Positions 13,546-61,082 of a stretch of 64,000 nucleotides of DNA are shown here, one piece after another. Numbering within the stretch: position 1 is the stretch's first letter; every line of letters begins with the position of its first letter. The position numbers were made by a program, and so were the translations under genes. Below the pieces are notes generated by a model that did not search any database, was not told the origin of the DNA, and was given only the letters and a program-made list of their open reading frames with translations. Origin of the DNA: Onchocerca volvulus (lineage: Eukaryota; Nematoda; Chromadorea; Rhabditida; Onchocercidae); NCBI GenBank assembly GCA_000499405.2, contig HG738138.1, positions 2,840,368 to 2,904,367 on the forward strand. Reading direction: 5' to 3'.

Positions 13546-16500
13546 TTACATATTTTCTAACATATTTTGCAAAGATTTGAACGTTTCGGCGAGTTTCTTC
13601 TGGTCAGAAGCAGTGGATTGTGCCTGCGAGAGATTTATCAAAAATGCTGCTATTAAATCTAAGCATTTGCTAGCCAGTGCTGTCCTACTGCAAGAAAAAT
13701 ATCAATTATTATAATACTTCAATAAATAAAATTCTGAAACATATGCAAAATATATTTTGCATAAAAATTGTCGATGATACTTCAAATAGTTGCAATAGAT
13801 TTTAATTAGAATTTCTTCATCTGACTTTGTTTGATTAATTTTCCTGCTCTGCTATTCTTGTATCTTTTAACAAAATATTCTAGCACTTTTCAGACAGAAA
13901 AATACAATGTGAAAGTGATATCAATAAATCTTACCTTTGCTGATAAGTATAAGAGGAATTTTCCACAAACTTCGTTATGACATGTAATGCTGATCGCATT
14001 AAGTAACGAGAAGCTGTATTATTCTTCTGATAAAAGGGATCTCTCCTGCAAACAGATTAATGTCTGATATCAAAAATATAGCACTTTATCTATGGGTTCA
14101 AATTATCATACTTAAATTGGAATCATAACTGATCAAATTAAAAACTACATATAAAACTTATTTTACCTAAACATATTCGACAATGTATCAATCATAACAT
14201 TTAGTGGTGCATCGATTCTTGTCCCAATGAAATGAAAAAACGAAGGTGAGAAGCCTTCACGCATCCCTCTGTTCAACAATTTCGACAGTATCATTTCTAA
14301 AAAGATAATACAACATATCATCTTTATATTAAAAAAAAAAAAAAAAGAATCCATTTTTTTATTCTAATTCTCTCCAAATATTTCTGGCAAACAACACGAA
14401 ATCAAAAATTTTTTGCAAATGCACAATTAAAAATATGTCAAAAAGTGAAAAATAAGTGCCGATAAGAGCATCAAAAATCTGTTCTATTTTCGGTATAGGT
14501 CGTCTACCAAGTCTTAAGCAATAATAATGATAAAGAAATAAGGAAAATTCTACTCCATATCTTCTGGCAAGTAGAAAGTCGGCTAAATTATTTGTTTCAG
14601 CCTTTTAACCTCGGTTACATACTTCTCTTATTCCAAAATATCCTACAATCCCATTTTTTTAAAAATCATGTTGAATGGAAGAACGACGTTTTTGATCTAA
14701 ATTAAGACCATCAAAAACCTACCGAGAGGATAATATTTTGGTACCAGCGAATACTTCTTTGATAAACTAGCTATTCGTGTACCTAGACGCTGAATACGCA
14801 CTTCACGTGATTCACCTTCAGATGAGAACAACTCTGTAAAACAACATCATTAGTCAAACATAACCGGTAATTTCAAACCAATTTCTGGAACTTGTTTAGT
14901 AATTGCAACCAATATCACACACATACCACATTCTTAATACACCATAAAAAGAAAATCAAAATAATGGCTACAGAAGACGAATATCTGCTTCTCTTTTTCT
15001 TCATCCTGCTTTCAAAATTTTATTAAATTTGCAAAGTGAGACAAAAAATTGCATACACAATAAGATCTATATTTAAAAAATAATTTTTTTTATTTGACAA
15101 ATTTTAGGACTTTAAAAAATAACCTCTATCAATTATTTCTGTATAGAAATCTTCGATAGCATTTTCATCATAAGTTGATGAACAAAAACAAAGAGCAAGT
15201 TTGATATCTGGTAAATCCAACGGAACAGCAAATTCTTCGAAAAGTTCCTGCACCGTATACAATTTCTTTTCAAGATTATTTTTGGCTGTAATCGTTTCAC
15301 GAGTCTGCGGCATTGATTGTACCAAATCCCTAATTTTTGTTTCCATATTAATCATTAATAAATGCTGCTTTTTATAACGAGTGGAGCTGATACATGGAGG
15401 AGATTTAAAAAACGAAAAATTATAAAACTGAGGATCGCCTTCAGTGCTGCCGACTAGTGTAAGACAGATGGAACGATCTGATACATTAAACGTTATTCTC
15501 ATTTAAGTAAGATTGAAGATGCAGTATTTTTTCTCTCCTCTTAATCCAAAGATAAGAAGACGGATGGAGATAGGAAAGGTGAAGCCAGTAACAACAAAAA
15601 AGAAAAGGAATTCTAACTGAGCATAAAATTATATATGACAATAAAATATGTGATGAAGAAATAAAGATCTAACTGACCTTGCAGCAAGCTGAATTTGAGC
15701 AACATCAAGCTTATCACGTATTTCTAATACCAGATCATGTAAATCGGCATCTCCATCAACTTGCGGACCTGCTGACTGAATACACATTGCTGCTTGTGAC
15801 AAATATGCAACACGACGCTGAATGTCGAATGTATCCCTTAAAACAAGAAGAAACATCGTGAAGTTATCAGAACGGTATTATAAAACTGCATGATACGGAA
15901 AACATACGTTTCGCGTTGAGCAAGTTGGAACAAAAGGCTAGCTGCTTTCACATGATCACCGTTGCGCTCATGAAATCGCCACAAAAGATCTAAGTAACGA
16001 CTTGAGCCACCTTCTTCAACACAACGATGAAGGAATGCTTCTAGGAATGGAGATTTACTCTGAAATGAACGCAAAACCTTAAAAATAACTTCTGCCAATT
16101 TTAAGGAAATAACTTATGTACCTTCGAAATAAATTTTCCTCAACCATTTTTTCTGCAAACTGAAGTGTCACGGAACATTGATAGTTGAAAAAGAAAAAGC
16201 AAAGTGAACGACTGACCTGTAAAACAACGCTGCTAAAATCGTTGTCTAGAAGCCATTTAAAAATGGCTACATTCGCAAGTTCGTCTTTCGACTCCAGAAC
16301 TTTGCGGATGATAAGATCTTTCGCTGGATTAAGTAGATCTAATGTACCCGCAGCTTTTTGATCATTCATTAAACGATCCAGAGTATCGATTATACACTTG
16401 TATGCATCCTTTCTACAAATTTTTTAATTAAATCGTGGTCATATTATATGGTGCTTAAAAAAAAAAAAAAAATGGTCGTAATATACGGCAACCAATCTAA

Positions 16501-27332: not shown

Positions 27333-30300
27333 ATGGATGAATGGTGGACATTGGATGGTGGGCATACCTGGCGTTTAGTTGCGCAGGTTGTGGATGATGG
27401 TCGTGTTGCGTTCAATCGAGCATTTGTCCATCTGGAACCGTGGCAAATCGTCTCGTACACTTTATCCATTGCTTGTCTCTTCATTTGGCTGCAAAGACTG
27501 CTGAAAGCAGACCGTCCTCTTTCCACCCGTATTCGTGCTGCGGTACTTTTTCCGACAATTTACTTTCTTAAGTTTAAGAGGTCATGAATTTGATGTTTCC
27601 ATCAGATAAAAGCATGCTTATGTAAATTTATATTTCCAGATATTCTCCGCATTTCGCATGATACCATGGGTAAAGGTCCAAATAAAAGAAGAAATGGAAA
27701 AGGCAAGAAGAGATCTTGAAGAAACGATACATCAGTACGACAAGAAAAAAGTACGTTTGAAAAAATTACATATCGTGCTGTCCTGATGTTTCTATCATTG
27801 TATCACTTTGAAGTGTTTTAATTGATTCACGTGGAAATAAATAAGGAAAAATGAAGATAATGAAAGGTTCCTGAACTATTTATCTTGAAACATGTTTGAC
27901 ATTGTTTATATACTAGAGTTGTTCATGATCTTCTATTTCATGTGATATATTTTGCAGGAATTTTATAAGTTCTTGCCTGAGCATGGGCTTGCGAGTAGTA
28001 ATATAATTCATGAAGCAGAATTATATAAAACAATGAGTGAATTTTCTTTTTACGATGGTCGCGTTTCCGGAGTAATCTTTGCAGATGTTGATGAAGAACA
28101 CCGAGCATTACTGCAAAAAGTTAGCAAATAATTTCAGAATTGTTTGATTACTTCTTGATTTAAAATGAAATTCCTAATAAATTGGTTGTTTTTACAGATG
28201 TTTGAACTTTTCGCATATTCGGATCCTCTGTATCCTAATCTTTTTCCCGGCTGTCGGAAAATGGAAGCGGAAATTGTGCGCATCATTGCGTCACTTCTTC
28301 ACGGTGGTCCAGGTTCTTGTGGAACAGTTACTTCCAATGATACAGAAAGCAATATGTTGGCATGTTTTGGTGACTGTTTTTCTTCACTTTCCTGAAATCA
28401 GTGTTATATTAAATGTTTGAGGTCTTATTATTTTTTGTTATATTTGAGGAAGTATATATGTAATTTTTAGTTTTTTTTTTTTTTTTTTACACTGTGTAAT
28501 GTCGATGGTATCAATTCTCACATGATAGAGAAACGCAATTGTCAGAGTTCTAGACACTAAACTTTTTTTTTTGTTTTACTCAGTTTGAGTCCTTACTACT
28601 TAGCAGAGAGGCATAACTTAAAAACAGAAATATTTAGCGAAAAAGCATAATTGCCTTTAGATGTTCTGTGCAACTTGCTCCAACATTTCAGCTTATCGGA
28701 ATCGCGCGTTTGCTCGTGGGATCAGGCATCCAGAAATGTTGGTACCGGTAACTGCTCATGCTGCATTCGATAAAGCAGCGAAAGTATTACAAATGCGTAT
28801 TCGCCATATTTCCGTTGATAAAAACCACCGGGTTGATGTAGGTGCAATGAAACGCGCTATCAATAATGAAACTTGTATGGTATGTTTGTTATTCATAATT
28901 TTCTGAAATTCAGACCCATTGTTTTTCTGTCATGATTCAACAAATTTATATATATGTCTTGTATTTTACATGCTTATGTTTATGTTTCTAATTTATTTTG
29001 TTCTAGCTCGTAGCATCAGCTCCGAACTATTCATTTGGTACTATCGACAACATTGAAGCGATTTCTGAGGTCTTTTTGCATTCCTTGTGAAATTCTTGCA
29101 ATGCAGTAGTAAATGATTTAGGATATTGATTGTTCCTACTTTATACTTAAGTACAAATACCCATTCCAAATTATTCTTCTAGTTCATTTTCGCAGATCAG
29201 ATAAAGTGACTGAAGCTGTCCCTTATTATTATCATTTTGATTTTGATGAGAACTAATATTAACTGTTCATTAATTTAGTTCTTAATATATGATGCTTAAT
29301 TACTTCATAATTTCAAACCTTTGGAATACTAGTGGTTATTAATTTCAGCTGAGTCAACGATACGGCATTCCTTTGCATGTTGATGCGAGTCTTGGTGGTT
29401 TCATCCTGTCCATCATGGAACGATGTGATTTTGCAGTTAAATCGTTCGATTTTCGTGTACCCGGTGTTACATCGATTTCTTGTGATGTCCAAAAATATGG
29501 TTTTGCCCCGAATGGTAATTTAACTATTTCCTTATTTCTGCTTTTCACGACATTTCAAAATTTAAATAAATCATTTCTTACGTCCCAGTAGCTATTACTT
29601 TCACTGTATTTATCAGTTCATCACAAAAATTGTATCTATTAGGTACATCGCTGATATTGTACCGCGATTCCTCCTTACTTCATCACCAGTATTTTTGCAA
29701 CAGCGAATGGCCTGGTGGCATATATATGACACCTACCTTAGCTGGTAATAGAGATGGATGTGCAATAGCTTTAACATGGGCTACTTTACTTTACAACGGA
29801 AGACAAGGGTAAGTAAAAAGTTACTAGCTAGCCAGTAGCTGTTTATTTGTGTACGTTTCTGTAATCTATTGGAGAAATTTTTTTTTTCTTTCTTTTTTTG
29901 TGAAACCTGAAATCTTTCTTTTTTTATTATGGAGCCGTGATGATTTCACGTTAATTGTATGCCTTCATGTAATTGTGGTGTGCACATTTCCACTAACTTG
30001 ACGATGTGCTTGAATTATTCTACTCATCACATTCTATAAGTTCTTTGTGCCATATGACTGTTGATCCAGTTGATAACAAAGAAAACATCGGTCAAAGATT
30101 TTTTGGCAACTTTTCAGATTCTATAGTATAGGCTTAGTTTTGAATTTTAAGAATTATATAATTTATTTAAAAATTTTACTGTCTTTTTCTTCAGCTATAC
30201 AGAACGAATCGAGGCAATTATCAATACAGTGCGTGAAATACGAACCGGCATTGAAAAATGTCCGCACATGCAACTGTTATGTGAATCAGATGTTGCAACT

Positions 30301-43410: not shown

Positions 43411-46156
43411 TCAAGAGCATATAGCATATTTAGATAGTTTAGTTCGAAGCAAATATTGACACATAGATCCAGGTGCAATGCCACTTACTGCTTCTAGTTC
43501 TAATTTATTGCCATGTTGACGCATGCTTACCAGCTATAAAAACAATAATGCAAATATTCATGATGTGATGATGCATGCAAGTGAATTTTAAGGCCGTCAA
43601 AACAGAAGCTTCTTTTGCATAACTTATCTATTGATAATAGTAACTTCATATGATTAGCAGCTAATGCAAACCTCATTTTCCTAATGTCAATTTTTTCTTT
43701 TATTCCGGCTGAAAAAAAAAAAGAAAAGAAAAAAGAAGCAAGAAATAAAAAAATTTTCCAACATTCTAATATATAAACATCGGAATATAAAATGCTACTT
43801 TTAAAGACTGACATCTTAAATTATATGATACTAATTGAAAACATATATAAGCTGATCTAAAACTTGGAAATTCTTTTCGATGTACATTAAAGTAACAGAC
43901 AGACTTCTTTTAAGAGTATCTTATTTCCCAAAATGGCGATTCTTTGATAAAGCTTTTCCAGTTTTGCTAATTCACGCTTTTGAAGAGGAAGAAATTGAAC
44001 AACCGAAATAACAAATCTGAAAGCATATCGCTATTAAACCAGAATGCCGAAAAATATCTAATTAATTGCATAAGTGGAATACGGATGAAAATTTTCGTTA
44101 TTTTACACTATTTTTGAGAGAAAAACGCGTCACCCAAAATTATTTCAGGCGAAATTCAGCCTTTATTACTTCTCTTACTATGTACAACATCTCCAGAAAT
44201 GTTAAATAAAAGAAAGAAATAACTAAATTATTTTATTTTTTGGAAAATTATATTTACTTCGGTAATTTGCAACGCGACAACCCGATCCATTCAAAATGAG
44301 ATAATTCTCGATTCGCCACATCAAACTTTTTGCTACAATTACCATATTTATATGTCATCGCTATTTCAATGCCTAAAAAATAAAAATAGCAGCAACGATC
44401 ATCAAAAATAGTCTAGTTAGTAGTTCTGAATGAATCAAACGATATCTCATCATAAACATACCATGTGGATCACAATCCACCAAACCAAATAATGGAAGAT
44501 TGCTCAATTTCTTTAACATAATTCGCGTTGCAATATCCGGATAACCTCTACCCTTAAAGACAAAGTACAGCAATTTTAAAATTTTAGGATAGATAAAACG
44601 TGAGCATTCCTTGATATCAATTAACTAACCGTAACGAGAAGTGCATTGGGGAAAAGTTTCAAAAATCCTTCACCAATGAGTTCTTGAAAGATGGCATCTT
44701 TTTCGACCACTAATATGCACTGTGCGGTGGTAAAAAGATTTGAACGGGAAAAATCATCAATAATAGTAGCTTTGAGTGAACAATCCACTGTTCCAGTACT
44801 GCCATAAATTTTCAACTGACCAATCACGAGTCCATGACCAGATGAAAGCTAAAATTCAAAAAATTCTATTATACTGATTAGAATCATAGAATCATCGAGT
44901 ACTTTCAGTGTTGTTCATCTTTCAGTAATCTTTGCATGGACATCCTGAAAAAAACCAAATGTTATACCGACCAGTTAGGTTTTTAATTGATTATGAATAA
45001 TGAAATATCGAATCAATAAATTGATTCATGTTAATTAAGGTATCGTAAAGCTGCAAGATACGATGTAACCAGTTTACCAGAGGTATTCATAATAATTGTT
45101 TTTCACAACGAAGCATGGAGTACAAGTATATTAATTTGTACTTATTTTTGATGTTTCATGATAGCAATTCTCAAAAAAAAAAAAAAAAATTAAGTATATA
45201 TCTTATCGTTAAAACAAGTTTTCAAACAACTAGTTGAAATGATAAATCTAAATTATCTAATAATAATAAATCTAAATCATCTAACAATGATAAACGTAAA
45301 ATATCAAATAACTACAAATCCAGAAAATACTAGAAACTAGCCGCTTCTCATTTACCAAGCATCCAGAAGTCGGATCCATCCCAAGCCAACAATAGATTCG
45401 ACTGATAGATTTGTTCAGATTTCGCTGTTCACCAAACAAATTCTTTTGTTCATAAAAAAGATCCCTAAAAATACGAAATAATCTATTTGAAAATGCTTGC
45501 GGATATTTATCCTTTTTTTTTTTGGCAAAGTTCAAGTGAAAATTTCGGTATTATAATTTCTTTTCCGGATTTCAAAATGTGGCATATTGGTATTGACCAA
45601 CATTTCTATAGCCCAGTCGGTATCAAAAGTAGACTCGAAATATTCTAAGCTTCTTTTAATTTGGCAAAATGTTTAACAACAATTACCGTTTCGTTTTACA
45701 AGTCTTTGATACTCGCAACTGATATATCATGGAAACTGTTCGTAGCATTTGAGCAATCAGTCGAGAATTTTTTGGAGTTAACTTCAACTTATGTGCTTTA
45801 TTGTCAATCGCACTAAAGAAATCCTTTGAGATCAAATATTTGAATAAAAGTGCAATCAATTTGATAGGATTGCAACGCAGATGCATGGAAAATTTAGCTA
45901 CTTCAGATTTCTTTATCTTACACTGCATGAACATTTTAGAATCCTCGTCCATCAAATAGACTGATAATGGTATTTGCCAAATACAAAGAAGAATATAAAT
46001 AGGAAACCGTGGATTGGATAATATAATGTATCCACTTGGATTTTTGTTGATATCCACTAGTGATTTCAAAAATGCTAAGCAGCATTGTTCTATATGATAT
46101 AATACAGAATCAGCGGTATTTATATCAGAATTATCCCGCGAATTGAATAAAAACAT
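43411..46156 (-). CDS. spo-11: Spo11, meiotic double-strand-break transesterase (topoisomerase VI A type)
   Basis: Exons 46156-45687, 45464-45356, 44848-44630, 44552-44462, 44372-44258, 44016-43905 and 43533-43411, in phase, 412 residues. Motifs in order: MIYQL...KTKRDLFYEQ with the catalytic Tyr161 (codon 45454-45452), LFGEQR, SSGHGLVIG, the Toprim glutamate in LVVEKDAIF (Glu242), TGRGYPD, the metal-binding aspartates in LVDCDPHG (Asp292, Asp294), IEIAMTYKYG, and the C-terminal GNKLELEA segment. The family protein cuts both DNA strands at the start of meiotic recombination and stays attached through the tyrosine. The frame is open upstream to an ATG at 46228, but TCATTTTCAG|AA lies 2 bases before the ATG at 46156, a textbook trans-splice acceptor, so I prefer 46156. 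All catalytic residues are present, so it should be active. Confidence 0.9.
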
Positions 46157-48154
46157 TTCTGAAAATGACATAATATGTAAGAAATAAGAAAGAAATGAGA
46201 AAACTCGCTTTCGATTTTCAAAATTCATGTCATTGTATGATAAGAGCTCTACATTTATTTTTTCAAACTCGAAGTATCGTAGCTGATGAAAGCATCAGCT
46301 AATAAATGATAAAAGCTTAGCCGAAAGCAACGTTCGCAATGAATTTCTTCTTTTTGCAACGAAAATTACACGATAAAGATTAACGGCACTGGTGACTTGT
46401 ACATTAATCAACCAACTCAACTATTAATTAATGAAATCAAAAAAAAAAAAAAAAGGAAAGAAGAGATGTGTTAAAACAAACTGATACATCAAAGAATAAA
46501 AATCATGCTATATTAATTGAACAAGAAGAAAGCATCAAATTTGAAAACTAACACTCCATCTTCTCAATTTCTCCTCTATCATATTCCGATTTTTTTTGTA
46601 ACTAACTAAAATATTAGTGATCTAATCAACAAATTTGATTAATGATTTAATCAATAAATAGATTGAAAGTAATGGCTTGATAAGCTATTGTGGAACTTCT
46701 CCGAAAAAGACGAATCACTGACGGTTGTGCTCGAACATGCAGTTGAACGTTTCTCTTATTGCAGTTTATAATTTCTCTCATTAAACCAACACAAAAACTA
46801 CTACTCTACTAGAAAACCCTTCCAAAATTTAAGGCTGCTTTGTCAGTGTAAACTTTCAGGTATGCTCAATTTTGATACTCTCAACACCAATTTGTAACAC
46901 GCCAGTTCTTCTTGAATTTAACAGAATCGAAACAATTTTGATTTCGTGAATCCATTCTTCAACTTCTAATTCCGAGATGCGACATCATAATCGCTCATGC
47001 CTCAAATGCTATAAACGATATCACTGAGGCACGAATATTAATATGGCCGAAACCAAGCCATTCTTGTTTCCCTACTTATTCACTTAAAGGCCGCTATCGT
47101 GTTTAAGAGCTAACAAAAAAACTAAACTAAATTTATCGAATAAAGCTTAAGTCAATAGAAGATTTTTTATTGTCATTAACTTCAACCAAATTTTACTCAG
47201 CCTGAGCAATTAAAACTTAGATAACATGACTTTTCCTAGTTGTGAGCAACATCTTAGTAAAGTCAAAAAAGATGCAGCAATCAAAGAGCTAATGTTTATG
47301 CTAAATAATACTGATAAAGCTAATACTTTTTTATGTAGTTGTCCTTCCCTATAGCATCTCAGTGGTACTTGAGGAGATCGCAGCAGGAAAAGATAAAAAT
47401 GAAATAAAATAAATACAATAGAATATGAGATGATCACTACCTATCAGTGCCTATCAGCACTTTGCTGGGCCTTACATTAAATATCTCATCATACACTACT
47501 TTATAAATAATACTATATGGTACCGAAGAAGCCTGATACAAAGTACAAAGATTGGATGGAACTTATCTTTATCACTTAGAAAAGATAGAGCAGATTTGTG
47601 CCAAACCTGTTAAACCTTACCTTAATATAAGTATAAATCGTACGGTAAACTCGGATTTTTGTATATTCATGTATTATTATATGTAATGTTTCTGCTCATA
47701 GACTTATGTTTTTGTAGTTTATCTGACATTTTAACCTCATGTTCTACTATTCGAATAAATCTTGCTTTTTTTTTTTTTTTTTGTGAAATGCTCCTATAAG
47801 GAATAAAGAGATTTCCAAACAATAGTGTAAAGACTAAATATCTGAAGGAAAATATTACGTAATTAGTATGTTGCATTTAATTTTGTGTACTATGTGTTAA
47901 GATGTGCAAATAGTATACAAAATTGAACGAAAGACACCAACCTCATTAAGTCATATTAATTTTAATTTCATTATTATCATTAAACGAATAATACCAACTT
48001 TATAAAGATGTAAGTTTCAAGTTAAGTTTAAGTTTCAAGATTTTACTATATTAGCCTGAAACATGCTTCTAAAGCATTTTAAGGCAGTATCGAACAACAA
48101 GCTTACAAGAATAACTTAACTATTATGAGATTTCTTTTGTCTTCTTTTCCTATT
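46157..48154. other. Intergenic, with unassigned open-frame fragments
   Basis: About 2 kb upstream of Spo11. Parts look less A/T-rich than the surroundings and carry protein-like frames on the plus strand without splice sites: about 46957-47106 (contains PRCDIIIAHASNAINDITEA), 47226-47354 (MTFPSCEQHLSKVKKDAAIK...), a frame-shifted continuation ISVVLEEIAAGKDKNEIK (about 47358-47411), and TYLYHLEKIEQICAKPVKP (about 47561 onward). They may be decayed insertions, possibly more bacterial DNA; no identity was established. Confidence 0.35.
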
Positions 48155-48622
48155 CAGTAAATCTCTTTAACATCATATGAGAGTCAATGTTATCAGTCAC
48201 AATGTTTAGCTCATACTTTTGCAGCCCTTGAAAGCCAAATACTTTAGCATTCTCAACAACTTTCTTGCTAAAAATTTCAAACTTTGGCAGTGATGCTTCT
48301 TTAAATGCAACAACTTTTGCAGCCTATTACATGCATTTGTGGTCCACCTTGCAATCCTGAATAAACTGCAGATTGCACTTCTTCATGCAATGCTTCATCA
48401 TTTGTCATTATTACCCCCATTACAAGGGCCACGTAAACTTTTGCAAGTAGTGCAGGTTATACAACATGTGCATGTTCATCCCTGTAGTGAGCAATAACTG
48501 CAAGCAAATATGCATCCGCAATATCATTCGTAATCTCACGAAAACGTTTGGAATTTGTTTTTCTTGAATATTATTAACTTTGGTTTATGCTGGAACGCCA
48601 GTTTTATTACTTCATCCATATC
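48155..48622 (-). pseudogene. glyA: Decayed bacterial-type glyA (serine hydroxymethyltransferase), probable Wolbachia nuclear transfer
   Basis: Frame-broken pieces on the minus strand follow bacterial GlyA in order: DMDEVIKLAFQHKPKLII (48622-48569), REITNDIADAYLLAVIAH (48540-48461), [13 protein letters not shown] corresponding to the PLP-lysine region TTHKTLRGPRGG (about 48450), [20 protein letters not shown] and [11 protein letters not shown] (about 48412-48326), and [16 protein letters not shown] ... KVVENAKV ... TDNIDSHMMLK (about 48325-48160). At least four frame changes or stops separate them, there are no splice sites at the breaks, and both ends of the gene are missing. Similarity to the bacterial rather than the animal enzyme, intron-free structure and decay fit a nuclear insertion of Wolbachia DNA. 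It lies next to the 3' end of the Ctf18 gene. Origin from Wolbachia specifically is inference. Confidence 0.8.
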
Positions 48623-49110
48623 GAGCGAATAAATGTGTTGCGGCTTACTGTATACTGAATTAACTTGTACAAGTTAAATACTCCCAGAGCTTTTCCAATA
48701 TTACCTACCTGACCCTTATATCAAAGCCAGCTGATATAAGTCGCTCCTTTCTCTAAGATATCATCTAACAATGTATGACAACCACTAGCCATCCATAAGG
48801 TGATATACATCACTGATTCATAATTTATTTTTACATTCCTATTAAGTTCATTCACTCTCTGAATCAAATTTAGAACTCTCACTTCGCACTATAAGTTCCG
48901 TTAGCAGCGCATCTTTGCTACGGAAGTCTTTAAATTTCAAACAAGCACGCTCTATTTTCCTGCAAGATGAAATCCATCACAACAAAGCTTTTAACATTTT
49001 CATTCAATCTGTCTTTGTCTTCGTTTAATTGTTCAAGTCTGTTAATCACAATAAGAAGATCAAATTTTTTATGTGCTTTTTAACAAGGAAAATATAACAA
49101 TAAAAATAGC
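48623..49110 (-). pseudogene. Continuation of the bacterial-like insertion, second gene fragment
   Basis: The minus strand continues with protein-like but broken frames. LYKLIQYTVSRNT (about 48680-48640) could be the GlyA stretch before DMDEVIK in another frame. Further on, a frame at about 49075-48950 reads KFDLLIVINRLEQLNEDK then DRLNENVKSF, followed out of frame by CDGFHLAGK. That order resembles the small alpha-proteobacterial GapR/DUF2312 protein (ERIERLEEEK...GFD pattern), but the match is loose. Another frame gives KFKDFRSKDALLTELIV. Stops interrupt all of them. Best read as more decayed bacterial DNA from the same insertion event; identity uncertain. Confidence 0.45.
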
Positions 49111-49180
49111 AAGTAATCGGAAATATTTATAACGTAAAACATAGATGTACAAGAATAAGAACATAACAACATCTCTTTTT

Positions 49181-52100
49181 TTAGGATGAAAACAGGTTTT
49201 TTATCATGAGTTGTCGTCTTATGGCACTAGATGACCCCGAATTATAACAAAATGTAATTCCTGTCCCAAACTTGCCCGGTTTGATCAACTCTTCCTTCAT
49301 ATTCCTTGGTAAATTATCAACGGTTCCGTCAGCCAAAGCATCTACATTTCGCAGCTTTTCCTGTTCAATCTAAACAATGAAACAATCAAAGACATAATAA
49401 TTTTAAGCATACTTAGGCACAGTGGCCACAGATTGGATAAGATACAATATTCCAACAATGCTGATCATTGCCATATTCGCATTGTAATAACAATTAAATT
49501 AGCAAATGATTCAGCACGAAACAATCTAATGAAACTCAAACCTCATGTGCTATTAGCTGTCTCGCGCCATTGGACAATGTATTTGGGGATCGGTTATTGT
49601 GACATGCATCATCGTCAGCAAACATAACCAACTGGTCGATAGCACTGAAGGAGAAAAAAAAGAGTATCACCTAACTCGGTGGAATGTATTCGATAAAAAT
49701 TCACTGGAACTTACGGTTTAAAAACAAAGTTGATGGATCCATCCTGCGAAACAGAGGTAAAAGTCAGAGAATAAGTACGCATAATGGCAACAATCGAATG
49801 AAGAAGGGCAAGTTCTCGAACGCTGTACAACTGCATGTTCATCTGCAACAAACAAAACAGTTCGAAATATTTAGGTTGTCAGTCAGGAAGTTATTCATAA
49901 CATGATCATGAGAACTACGTGCTACTTGCACCAAGTCGTAAACATCTGGAGATATAAAGAAATTTTAAAGACTAACAGGCTTGAAATCCGGCTGCACAAT
50001 ACAGATGAGATATGGTAAAATTTCGAGTGCAACTGTTGACAGTGAAAGATTTTTCTGTGTTGCTCCAGCTCGCACGCTTTCCACTATTTCAACAGACTGC
50101 TCATAACGCTGTACTGCATTCTGAAATATACTTTAGCTTAAAAAGTAACAAACTTCTTTCAAGAGTCAAAATATGTTACAGTTACAAAGAAAAGTTAAAC
50201 AAACGAAATCATCATAGAAAGGACGGATTACATGATATTCTGTTGGTAAGTTCAGATGTGTTCGACCTCTGCAGCACAGAAGCATATGTATGCTAATGCA
50301 TACGGCGGATAAATATTTCAGCAAATTATAATCCTGAACACTATTCATGGATGTAACTATTCGATCATAATAACATAACTGACGAATCGCCATAGCAGCC
50401 TGAATATAGAATCATTGGTTAATCATGACTAGAAAAAAACTGACTAAATATTATGACACTAATATTATCAACTAGACGAGAATTTCACATGAAACCAAGA
50501 TTCTAATATAAAAATTGAAATTCGGATATTTATTCTGTATGACAGAAATACTTCTAAACTAATCTCAGCAAGCAAAAAGCGTAAATCATCGATCCATAAG
50601 ATCTCCTTTCAAAACTAACAAATATAGTACCACTTATTTTCCCTCAGCTATGGAGATAAAAAAAATGCCATTCATCACAGCCAACGACATTCTTTACAGT
50701 ATATTTTCAATCAGTACATCATTTTAAAATTAGCTTAATAATGCTAACTAATCTAATTTATTCATCGGAAGATTAGACTAAAGATGAATTTGAATCTTGA
50801 AATCTTGACCTCATTTGACCGATAATTGGTGATGCATTCTTAAGTTGTTAAAAGTTTTCATGAATTACCTCATTACGACTCAGCATTACATAATCGTTAG
50901 TATTTTCACAGCATGAGGAAGTTCGAAGTTGAGAAAACGACTCTAACTTCGTGAATAAAAAAGTCCATGAAATAGTTTACATGTGTTAGTACGCTGGCAT
51001 TTTTGTTATTCAAATAGTTGGTGAAAAGTCCCATATAGAAGCGATCAGTTTCGCTTCCGTGTAACTCCGAAATAAACGTAATTTGCTTGACACGTGAAGC
51101 TATAGCTTCAACGCGGCCATTTGCATCCAAATGTCGAGAAATTTCGAAGATTGAAGCCCACGAATCGAACAATGACTTGTCGCCAAATTGTTTCTCACGT
51201 TCGCAAAACTATAAATGCCTTCATTTGAACGAAACTGGTTGTCAGTAAATTTATTATGATCAAAAAAGTTGAATACAGGAAATCAAATACTGTTAACTTG
51301 CTTTAGCCTAGGATGCATTCAAAAGCAAAATCAGACAGAAAATACATACCTTAAGAACAGCTTTTCGATCGATTGTAGCACAATTTTTAGATGCAATAAA
51401 CTGCAAGTTGTTGATTGCGGAACGCAGATCGCATGAGCATACATCAATGATTTTCGACACTGCGCTTGATTCAACTTTCAAATGTTCTAATCTCGATATC
51501 TGGAAAAGAGTTTATGATTTTGTTAAATACATCAATAATGTGAATGAATTTGCTAAATTTCAATAAAAACAAGTTTTTTTTTTTTGATTTACATGCTTGA
51601 TTTCTATTCATTATGATTTTCTATTTACCATTCACTGATTTCTATTCATTACATATTCCACTGTTTTGAGAATTTTTAGATGCACCAGCATCATAATGAT
51701 GTAGGTCGTAAATCTTATTCACCATTGTAGATATAAAAACAAAAATTAAAGCGCCGGAAAATATATTATAACACAGTTAAATGCAAAATGAAGCCTAGCA
51801 TCTACTTACTCACTATATTTCATAAAATCAATGATCCGCAAAGATGAGCTCGCACTAAATAGAAAAACAAAGAAGCAAATGACGCTAGATATGCCACCAG
51901 ACCACACAGAGAATATAACTTCGTCAACGAATATATCTAAATCTGCTAGTGGAAAGTAAAATCAACTCAATTTGTTCAATTAAATAAGAGCGAAGAAAAA
52001 TGAGTGCCTGTTCGAGTCTTCTGGTTAAACGCTTTTCGTCAGTTCTCGACAACTGTAACACTAAAGCGATTAATCGTAATTCCCGCAGAGAGGGAGTGTA

Positions 52101-54597
52101 TCTGCAACAAAAATCCTAATAGTTCTATACCAAAAAATATTGGAGAGATATCAAATTTCACTCGAATTATCAAAATGACTGTTTTTCTCTGTATGGAGAA
52201 CATGTACTAACAGATTGTTGCATATGCATATTACAGGACGTCGCAGTGAATGTCTTCCAGTTGCAGTTACAGCTTTACACAAATAATGAATAGATTGCGC
52301 TGGTGCACCATCAATTTCATCCAAAATAAGACAATTTGGTTTGGAATCCTGCAAAAAAAATTTTCTACAAAATGAACCAATTCTAACCTATCAGATAACT
52401 CAAAAAAAAAAAAAACTCATCCTTACGGCATCCAGAGTCCTTGTGGTTCGTAATGCATCTTCAAAACACTTTTCGAAATCCATGGTATTTCGCTCATCAC
52501 TGAAAGGAGGAAAAAAGTGGGAAATGCCAAAAAATACAGTACATAAGCTCTTACATAATCGAGGAATTGTATCGGAAAAGTGATAACAAAAAAATTGTTT
52601 TAGCTAATCTTGAAGAATCTCAATAACAAATTAAGAGACTGTTAATTCAGGAAGAAAATAAGCTGAGGCAAAAAAGGACTGTGCAACAATTGTGTATCAA
52701 AATTAAGTGAATTTACCTAGCATTTAAACTCGCTACTCGATATCCAGCATGTTGCGCCACCAAAGTTGCTAATGTTGTTTTACCAGTGCCAGCAGGTCCA
52801 GCTAGGAGCACTACCTAAACGTATTTTCTCGAACCCCTTCAAATGTTTTTGCTCGGATGAAAAATTAATGAACATGAAATGTTTTCGGCAAAAAACGGAC
52901 TCATACTTTATGCGATGGGCGTCTTGGTTTTTCATTGTTCAAGATGAGGAGTTGTTGTTGATTTGAAGCACCTTTTAGGACAACATCCGAAATAGTCCTC
53001 TGAAAGACACACTCGTCCCATAGTCTTAACCAGTTCAGCAACAAACGATTCACAGTCTGAAATTGCTTCCCTCTCAGAAAATTCATTAAAATATGTATCA
53101 ACATAATCCGTCAAAAGTTTTGCTACCAGTCCAGATGTAAACTAGAGTTATCAAACTAAAGGAAAATTAAAGCACCTCATCACTAATAAGATCAGCATAA
53201 GTATGCGGCGCATATTTCTCAACCCACAACTTATTCTGAATGATCGCAGACTCCGCTTCCACATCTTTAGGAACAATATCAGAAACTTCAAAAGCAATCC
53301 CAGAATTTAACACTTTTTCGGTGTAACCAAACTTCATAGCATCACTTCTTAGTTTATCACTGCTGTGTTTATCAACCGTTTGTTCAGCACTCCTTAACAT
53401 TATGTAGAATCTGCAAACATTCTCCTCATAAAATGAAATACCTTCCTGAATCTGATTCAGGATTTCTAACATTCAGAGGTCATTCAGCAACAGCTTTCCG
53501 AATAAATAACGAAAATATTCTTAAAAATCTCCCTTCTTCGTACACGAAGATCTTCAATTTATTTATAATTTTAACCTCTGCAAGATTGTAGGAGCTGTGA
53601 AACCGATCCACGGCGTACCATCATACGGTGGATATAGCAATACTTCGCTTTTTCTCGACTTTGCTGATGTACTTTGTTTAGCCTCTTCTTCATCTGTTCG
53701 TAAATCTGTTAAATGACGTTTTCTACGAGTCTATAAACAATCATAGAGAGTTTATATAGGATTAGCTAATATATTTTAAAATTACGCAGGATGAAATTCG
53801 ATTTAGAAAAATCTGTCACCATCATGTACTGAGATAGGCTCATTATGTAGTTAGTCGAAAAATAACACAAGTTTCATAAAAGCAACCGAAAAATGGAACC
53901 CAAAAAATTTAAAAGCAATTCGAACTATGCATACCATTCTCAAATAAATCAATGAAATATCCTAACTAACCCACCCATAAAATGCGTCGTGTAAGACGTT
54001 CAACCATTTGATCGCTAAGAATCCCTCGTCTTATATCGCGTTCTTCTTCATAATTATCGCAATTTACTCGCATATGCCAATCTGTTAATACTCGTAAGTC
54101 CATTTTATGAAATTGAATTTCAAGTTTTGCTTGACATGAGCACTTCTTGATCATCACTCTAATGTTTCATCTAGTAACACGATTATAAACTGAAAGTATG
54201 TCTACAAATAAATGATCAGAATACCGACCATTGAATATTCAGTTTATTTTATAAGTTGTTGGTAATTATTGCGCTCATTTCAACATCCCAATCATGAAAC
54301 ATAATTAAGCAGAAAATTACATACCAAGTGCATCACAATCATCAGGTATCGATATCCGTTTTGGCGATCTCTGTAGAACGTCATTCAAAATATTTACCGA
54401 TGGGTCATTTTGTACATTTGTCTCTCTTCAAAAAAAAAAAAAAAAATTCAGATACGAGAATTAAACATATTCTACTACTATGAATTTGGCATTTATCACA
54501 TCACATGACGATGAAATCGAACAGAAAAAACTAACTCATAGTTCAAGGCGTCGTCAGCAAAATCCGCTTCAATCTCATTATAGACATCTGAATCCAT
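49181..54597 (-). CDS. ctf-18: Ctf18, large subunit of the alternative replication-factor-C clamp loader
   Basis: Exons 54597-54532, 54421-54325, 54156-53975, 53730-53576, 53410-53176, 53056-52907, 52814-52717, 52499-52427, 52348-52212, 52101-52008, 51499-51350, 51208-50981, 50940-50869, 50399-50232, 50120-49977, 49842-49715, 49644-49542 and 49369-49181; 822 residues. Landmarks: LWVEKYAPHTYADLISDE and LLNWLRLWDECVF before the ATPase, Walker A GPAGTGKTT (301-309), sensor-type NASDERNTMDF, Walker B LILDEIDG (359-366), RRPVICICNN, RLTRRLEQISRLE, CDLRSAINNLQF, and a C-terminal ITFCYNSGSSSAIRRQL tail that matches the Ctf8/Dcc1-binding end. EIDGAP distinguishes it from RFC1. The complex loads and unloads PCNA and supports sister-chromatid cohesion. 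The intron between 52008 and 51499 begins with GC (CAG|GCACTC). Exons 2-4 at the variable N terminus are less certain. Confidence 0.9.
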
Positions 54598-60500: not shown

Positions 60501-61082
60501 AAATTAAAAAAACTATTATCTTCAATACTATTTCAATACATAAACAATTATCCTTTCATTTATAAAGGTTTTTGCTAAGACCTGCTGTCCTTGAACAGGT
60601 TGATCCGTATCGTGAGCAAAATATGATTCATGGCTATAGAAGCGAAAAACGTCCTGTGGCCTTTCTGATAGCATTGTGTAGTACTGACGAACGAATTCAC
60701 GTCCAATTTCTAAAAACATATAACAGTAGGAAAAATAGCCGGCAAAGTTAAAATTAAAGCTACCTGATTTAAAAAATTATGCTATATTTTCTCTGTCACG
60801 ATATCGAACTTCTAAAAGCATAACTTTTTTTGAAATGAGACGGTAACAATATATGATTCCCATAGTATATTCTGAGGACTCACTGAAGTTGACATGGTTC
60901 CAATAAACGACCAAGGGGGCATCATGTCCCAACATATGTGTAGAAATCAGTGTATCAACATTATGAAATATTTATATATTCAAATCGAAATTTAATATAA
61001 GACCTTTAGGCGATGGTTGTGGTGTCTTGGCAACTTCATTAGTACGGCCGTTTATAATATCACCAACTCCCTCCATCTTCAT
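57582..61082 (-). CDS. gtbp-1: G3BP/Rasputin-type RNA-binding protein (NTF2-like + RRM + RGG)
   Basis: Exons 61082-61004, 60709-60546, 60496-60395, 60261-60102, 59611-59513, 59187-59027, 58868-58661, 58576-58481, 58375-58242, 58012-57880 and 57718-57582, in phase, 490 residues. N-terminal NTF2-like domain about residues 27-160: EIGREFVRQYYTMLSERP, FYSHESYFAH, FVDCKARIYTVSGT, GRRFLQTFILCPQ, YYVHNDVFQWLD. Then an acidic/polar linker (about 165-325), an RRM at about 326-405 with RNP2 RLYVGGI and RNP1-like TIFAFVVM, and a C-terminal glycine-arginine tail (GGGRGGGGGGSRG) ending SSEHGRH. G3BP proteins nucleate stress granules by binding RNA through RRM/RGG and dimerising through NTF2. The C. elegans orthologue is gtbp-1. 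The ATG lies 18 bases after a TGTTTGCAG acceptor, consistent with trans-splicing. Confidence 0.93.

Follow-up and report, generated by a model that had tools for sequence, protein, structure and literature searches.

The window, as we call the whole 64-kb stretch of Onchocerca volvulus DNA analyzed here, lies within contig C3 (25,485,961 bp) of an assembly of 94.68 Mb in 115 contigs. Between two host genes it carries a series of pieces of Wolbachia DNA (Table 1), which we compare mainly with wOo, the Wolbachia of Onchocerca ochengi (NC_018267.1). On the right, a Ctf18 exon at 52154-52387 matches Ctf18 chains in the PDB (E 1e-6); the last Ctf18-like exon, which has no PDB match of its own, ends with a stop codon at 49181-49183. 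An earlier note on this DNA had placed a bacterial remnant 560 bp beyond this stop, and the figure holds. The Spo11 neighbor named by the same note on the left stands by its Pfam match, whereas its PDB matches are weak (E 0.04 and 0.22). Elsewhere in the window, we observed nucleoporin exons (15629-16113, minus strand; Pfam Nucleoporin_C), an exon with an NTF2 domain (60528-60776, minus strand), presumably G3BP-like, and an exon weakly matching pyridoxal-dependent decarboxylases (29343-29591, plus strand; E 2.5e-4, below cut-off), which we take to resemble sphingosine phosphate lyase. The window gave no Rfam match at gathering scores and no tRNA.

Table 1. Features at the locus, in window coordinates. 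The strand given for each Wolbachia piece is the orientation of the wOo plus strand.
Feature	Position	Strand	Basis or counterpart
Host Ctf18 gene, exons (right neighbor)	49181..53472	-	outer limits from ORFs, not a gene model
Wolbachia glyA piece, decayed, internal	48167..48676	-	blastn, wStur, protein search, codon-position test
Second Wolbachia piece	48028..48167	+	wOo 621322-621468; 75%, E 1e-16
Possible 37-bp piece, weak	47800..47836	-	wOo 860330-860366; 89%, E 2e-6
Possible 59-bp piece	47671..47729	.	wStur 85%, E 1.4e-9; weakly wOc 76%, E 0.009
Third robust Wolbachia piece	47365..47609	-	wOo 167116-167353; 67% over 245 bp, E 6e-17
Fourth robust Wolbachia piece	47077..47330	+	wOo 809826-810074; 76%, E 1.7e-42
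Host Spo11 exon, Toprim domain (left neighbor)	44373..44624	-	Pfam PF21180, E 5e-9

The Wolbachia glyA piece and its decay

By blastn, window 48666-48167 aligns with wOo 380491-381028 at 74% identity (E 1e-96), gaps making up 62 of the 550 columns, and a DNA match to wStur carries the right end to 48676; the best chance match of the reversed window has E 1.4e-5. The piece spans about codons 144-327 of 425, the remainder of the gene being absent at this locus. Its fragments follow GlyA order on the minus strand and are broken by stops and frameshifts, and the Pfam SHMT model (PF00464) scores above cut-off at window 48123-48329 (G000:C3:2888490-2888696; E 1.3e-6). This confirms the decayed bacterial glyA of the earlier note; of the span given there, 48155-48622, the locus is right and the 5' side too short. 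The neighboring stretch 48677-48888 was also considered as GlyA and rejected: it has no GlyA match, and we dropped it from the tree and later tests.

A protein search with the joined read, a query including about 70 residues later found not to be GlyA, returned Wolbachia GlyA first, the best being that of the Dirofilaria immitis symbiont (E 2e-52). Twelve of the best 19 of 2,750 rows (E <=1e-3) are organism-named entries, all Wolbachia, and the other seven are unnamed; among the matches listed, the first row named for something other than Wolbachia has E 1e-36. By tblastn, the joined read scores 201 bits with wOo (61% identity), 196 with wStur, 145 with Neorhizobium, 116 with Arcobacter and 47 with the host SHMT (29% identity), the host score being lowered by introns that split the match; at the DNA level, the host SHMT gene scores 40 bits versus 350 for wOo. 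The glyA piece is Wolbachia-derived, nearer to Wolbachia than to the host or other bacteria, so that both the Wolbachia origin and the alpha-proteobacterial rather than nematode best match expected earlier are borne out. Descent from the host SHMT gene by copying and decay would agree with the PF00464 match, this domain being common to both, but the tblastn scores and identities refute the idea.

In a maximum-likelihood protein tree, wOo, wDi and the nuclear piece stand apart from the rest (support 82), and the nuclear piece joins wDi (85). AU tests on 168 sites give p 0.28-0.68 for three placements in supergroup C, 0.078 for a placement with wBm/wBp/P0018 (D), 0.099 with P0006 and 0.010 with wOc and wStur; wOo, wDi and basal C are not separable, and D is not rejected at 5%. 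The supergroup letters of the strains in the tree and AU test are those we assume, in part after Vancaester 2025. On these sequences, the donor would most likely be a supergroup C Wolbachia. Where three outgroups agree in the untrimmed alignment, the nuclear piece shares 12 wOo changes and is without 13, which probably dates its insertion to some point within the wOo lineage.

Differences between the nuclear piece and wOo are even over codon positions 1, 2 and 3 (28/165, 31/163 and 32/164, that is, 0.170, 0.190 and 0.195 over 492 sites; p 0.82), in contrast to those between live wOo and wStur (16/165, 9/163 and 50/164, or 0.097, 0.055 and 0.305; p 1e-10). The even pattern indicates that divergence took place mostly without coding constraint, after insertion. 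We found no open frame over the GlyA catalytic core, only the middle of the gene with its stops and frameshifts, and the insert is, to judge by its sequence, without function as GlyA. The inactivation claimed in the earlier note is thereby upheld by codon positions, indels and stops, and the old age it proposed for the insertion is suggested by the low identity to wOo.

With Ctf18 and Spo11 exons on either side in a 25.5-Mb contig, the locus is placed inside a nuclear chromosome, as had been supposed. An assembly chimera with live symbiont DNA seems extremely unlikely: 74% identity with frameshifts is unlike a live Onchocerca symbiont, and a DNA search finds the locus once, inside the 25-Mb contig. 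The filarial host named in the note agrees with another glyA piece of the same genome, 98.4% identical to wOo.

Unlinked Wolbachia pieces at this locus and elsewhere

The glyA piece is one of four robust tiles, of about 140 to 510 bp, that run from 48676 to 47077. They match wOo at 167, 380, 621 and 810 kb, mutually at least 188 kb apart, and their orientation alternates along the row. The second piece, which abuts glyA at 48167, corresponds to wOo sequence between surE and a GGDEF response-regulator gene (by Pfam of the neighbors); the third, which gives 71% over 179 columns in a second alignment, to sequence flanked by a sigma-70 gene and a long ORF that Pfam does not recognize; and the fourth to a stretch about 150-400 bp upstream of metK (ORF positions; MetK by Pfam). 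In the intervening 47610-48027 (about 420 bp), only the two short weak pieces were assigned. The 37-bp piece would come from an lpd-like ORF (pyridine nucleotide-disulphide oxidoreductase, Pfam), and 36 of its bases also match wOc (E 9e-6) and wStur (E 0.004); the 59-bp piece has no wOo match. Positions 47766-47782, between Wolbachia pieces, are 17 consecutive T; poly(A) runs of more than 20 bases near Wolbachia-like sequences in filariae are reported by McNulty 2010 (PMC2882956).

Between the glyA piece and the Ctf18 stop (48677-49180), there is no convincing match to wOo or other Wolbachia DNA. A GapR-like Pfam match at 48933-49079 (E 0.0095, below cut-off) was rejected, the family's wOo match at 264.8 kb having no match in the window. 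The rest of the window has no match at E <=1e-10 to 800 kb of wOo, the last 158 kb having been compared only with window 46900-49400, and a DNA search of the genome found no second copy of the patchwork. Highly permissive blastn scoring gave hundreds of AT-rich chance matches and was replaced by stricter scoring with the reversed control; window matches at E 1e-4 to 1e-3 do not surpass this control and are not counted as pieces.

The locus thus reads as a complex nuwt (a nuclear insert of Wolbachia DNA), with non-neighboring donor fragments joined in one place. Of the single decayed glyA insertion seen in the earlier note, glyA stands; the patchwork of unlinked Wolbachia tiles around it was missed. 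Donor order is read from wOo and may differ in the real donor; a donor rearrangement could join two places but would hardly produce breaks within glyA together with tiles every few hundred bases.

The genome holds four further glyA pieces, at C3:24.37 Mb (L002), C3:15.90 Mb, C75 and C1:1.62 Mb, whose surroundings we compared with 800 kb of wOo. A piece of another wOo region lies 1, 152, 179 and 1 bp away, respectively, so that all five glyA nuwts found have such a piece within 200 bp; those of the window, L002 and L068 abut an unlinked piece with at most one base between. L002 consists of tiles of 200, 246 and 97 bp at 100, 98.4 and 97.9% identity to wOo. Its first two tiles are separated by one filler base without microhomology and at the other junction about 11-15 bp of filler are present; these junctions do not single out one repair pathway. 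Junctions in the window patchwork are too decayed to read. With 67-76% identity, the lowest of the five, the window patchwork is probably the oldest of those with glyA. Around L002 (G000:C3:24365277-24366600), the fresh 98-100% patchwork lies about 430 bp from an old 74% Wolbachia piece, and this site may have been hit twice.

We surveyed the genome with five 20-kb wOo blocks across the first 800 kb, fixed before the search, at a cut-off of E 1e-6, scoring 40 candidates per block of 51, 72, 67, 78 and 58. The blocks gave at least 44, 41, 45, 40 and 41 matches, at least 211 in total. Among the 211 matches listed, the median length is 169 bp, with 10 longer than 500 bp and one of these longer than 1 kb; for the 22 pieces at >=95% identity, the median is 197.5 bp. 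Six pairs among the 211 come from non-adjacent places in wOo (separated by 10 to 572 kb on the linear map) and meet within -4 to +5 bp, a seventh unlinked pair is 155 bp apart, and seven pairs less than 200 bp apart are collinear in wOo. Random placement, for which starts less than 220 bp apart served as a proxy, yields a mean of 0.1 pairs and a maximum of 3 in 10,000 trials. A 20-kb Arcobacter block (30% GC) has a single match in the 94.7-Mb genome, the glyA piece of the window, because that block holds glyA.

Pieces within a patchwork at first seemed alike in identity to wOo: 29 pieces in 11 groups gave F 12.0, reached in 0 of 20,000 shuffles (p 5e-5). This set left out a 73.6% and a 28-bp piece near L002, a weak 57-bp piece at L004, the two weak window pieces and the pair 155 bp apart. 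With the left-out pieces back (36 pieces, 12 groups), F falls to 1.9, a value reached by 1,761 of 20,000 shuffles, which removes this argument for a common age within each patchwork. The five glyA loci alone give F 3.3 (772 of 20,000), and the six survey pairs alone show no likeness of identity (F 2.1; 4,241 of 20,000). That each patchwork arose in a single event is plausible, with L002 as the best case.

How the pieces may have been joined

We think it quite probable that short unlinked Wolbachia fragments were joined and sealed in between Ctf18 and Spo11, likely by end joining. The fragments would derive from a pool of degraded symbiont DNA; those at this locus, drawn from four widely separated parts of the symbiont chromosome, would have been ligated to one another and inserted into the host chromosome, presumably in the germ line. 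Complex numts suggest that the most likely route is repair of a double-strand break by end joining. The insert would then have decayed free of coding constraint. That short, abutting and unlinked pieces are many genome-wide, and that fresh ones are among them, argues for small fragments joined at or before insertion.

One could instead suppose that a single large Wolbachia insert was later fragmented and reshuffled by nuclear deletions and rearrangements. The seven collinear survey pairs are explicable by small deletions or insertions within one insert, and McNulty 2010 (PMC2882956) treats a large piece later scattered and separate small fragments as undecidable for filariae. However, pieces at 95-100% identity do not exceed old ones in length, the fresh L002 pieces already abut unlinked ones, and identity correlates negatively with length in the survey (Spearman -0.31), which is the reverse of progressive break-up, with the caveat that long old pieces are easier to detect. 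A large insert is therefore unlikely. Independent insertions into one hot spot at different times, which we hold to be rather unlikely, would fit the old piece beside L002, the within-patchwork likeness that vanishes once all pieces are counted, and the association of nuwts with Pao and helitron elements (Vancaester 2025, PMC12693587). Yet a hot spot does not readily account for six survey pairs that meet almost to the base, or for three abutting L002 pieces so close to one another in their identity to wOo.

Copying of Wolbachia RNA by retrotransposons has been proposed for Brugia (Ioannidis 2013, PMC3849323). In its favor, the coding share of matched bases is 0.667 versus 0.609 expected among the 211 pieces listed (p 0.054), 53 of these 211 are less than 20% coding versus 70.7 expected, and the T run of the window lies between pieces. 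The 59 pieces at >=90% identity have a coding share of 0.735 versus 0.640 expected (p 0.11), all these shares resting on rough ORF-based gene calls. The bias is neither significant nor strong, however: a quarter of the pieces are mostly non-coding, and three of the four robust window tiles lie clear of any ORF of >=100 aa, two of these having converging ORFs on either side. Pieces crossing oppositely directed genes number 2 of 211 versus 2.2 by chance, a weak test of the RNA route. Template switching between RNAs could still yield patchworks, but we consider this origin improbable.

Whether the joining of small fragments goes further, patchworks of randomly ligated fragments sealed into one break being the usual way in which Wolbachia DNA enters the Onchocerca genome, we see as evenly balanced. 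As a very rough estimate, 45% of piece ends would adjoin another piece, given 12 of 422 ends seen to do so and about 6.4% of neighbors detectable (the search covered 100 of 958 kb, and 200 of the 326 candidates were scored). If true, each patchwork would record a single episode of germ-line symbiont lysis.

Relation to known nuclear transfers

Hundreds of O. volvulus nuwts are known: Cotton 2016 (PMC5310847) counted 531 and Vancaester 2025 (PMC12693587) 653 regions, 96% of them assigned to supergroup C. The window locus, which may well already be in their supplementary nuwt tables, resembles these in being short, fragmented, mostly nonfunctional Wolbachia DNA in a nuclear chromosome. Unlike our description of a patchwork, however, the searched parts of both texts count gene-based regions, with no mention of patchworks; the pipeline described in Vancaester 2025 is blind outside protein-coding genes, so that such tiles would be missed. 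The searched passages of PMC12693587, PMC3849323, PMC4046930, PMC2882956, PMC5310847, PMC5429809 and PMC4299567, and the nuwt passages sought in PMC7181701, describe no nuwt patchworks. Unlinked pieces that abut one another are not mentioned in any of these passages.

The nearest precedent is in O. flexuosa, where Table 1 of McNulty 2010 (PMC2882956) gives 114 Wolbachia homologs, with a mean of 159 bp, on 92 fragments, four of which are drawn in a figure; some fragments must therefore carry more than one homolog. The searched passages do not give the linkage in Wolbachia of homologs that share a fragment. Complex numts and nupts (Portugez 2018, PMC6215612) likewise combine several cytoplasmic-genome fragments at one nuclear locus, for which end joining is the proposed mechanism; here, in contrast, very short tiles from a bacterial symbiont lie in an animal genome. 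In Brugia malayi, most nuwts are similarly of 100-200 bp, by a histogram in Ioannidis 2013 (PMC3849323), and it is the RNA route proposed there that sets them apart from our reading of the window.

These observations bear on the form, intact or fragmentary, in which symbiont DNA arrives, a question testable in existing assemblies, and suggest that it can enter a worm genome as small stitched fragments. If patchworks are single events, several gene trees per event would allow sharper dating and supergroup assignment for the history of the symbiosis. Brugia nuwts reach 29 kb (Vancaester 2025, PMC12693587), and by far the longest of our 211 listed survey matches (C3:196410-198699), at 2,290 bp, is 99% identical to wOo and perhaps very recently transferred; it shows that longer Wolbachia pieces also arrive.
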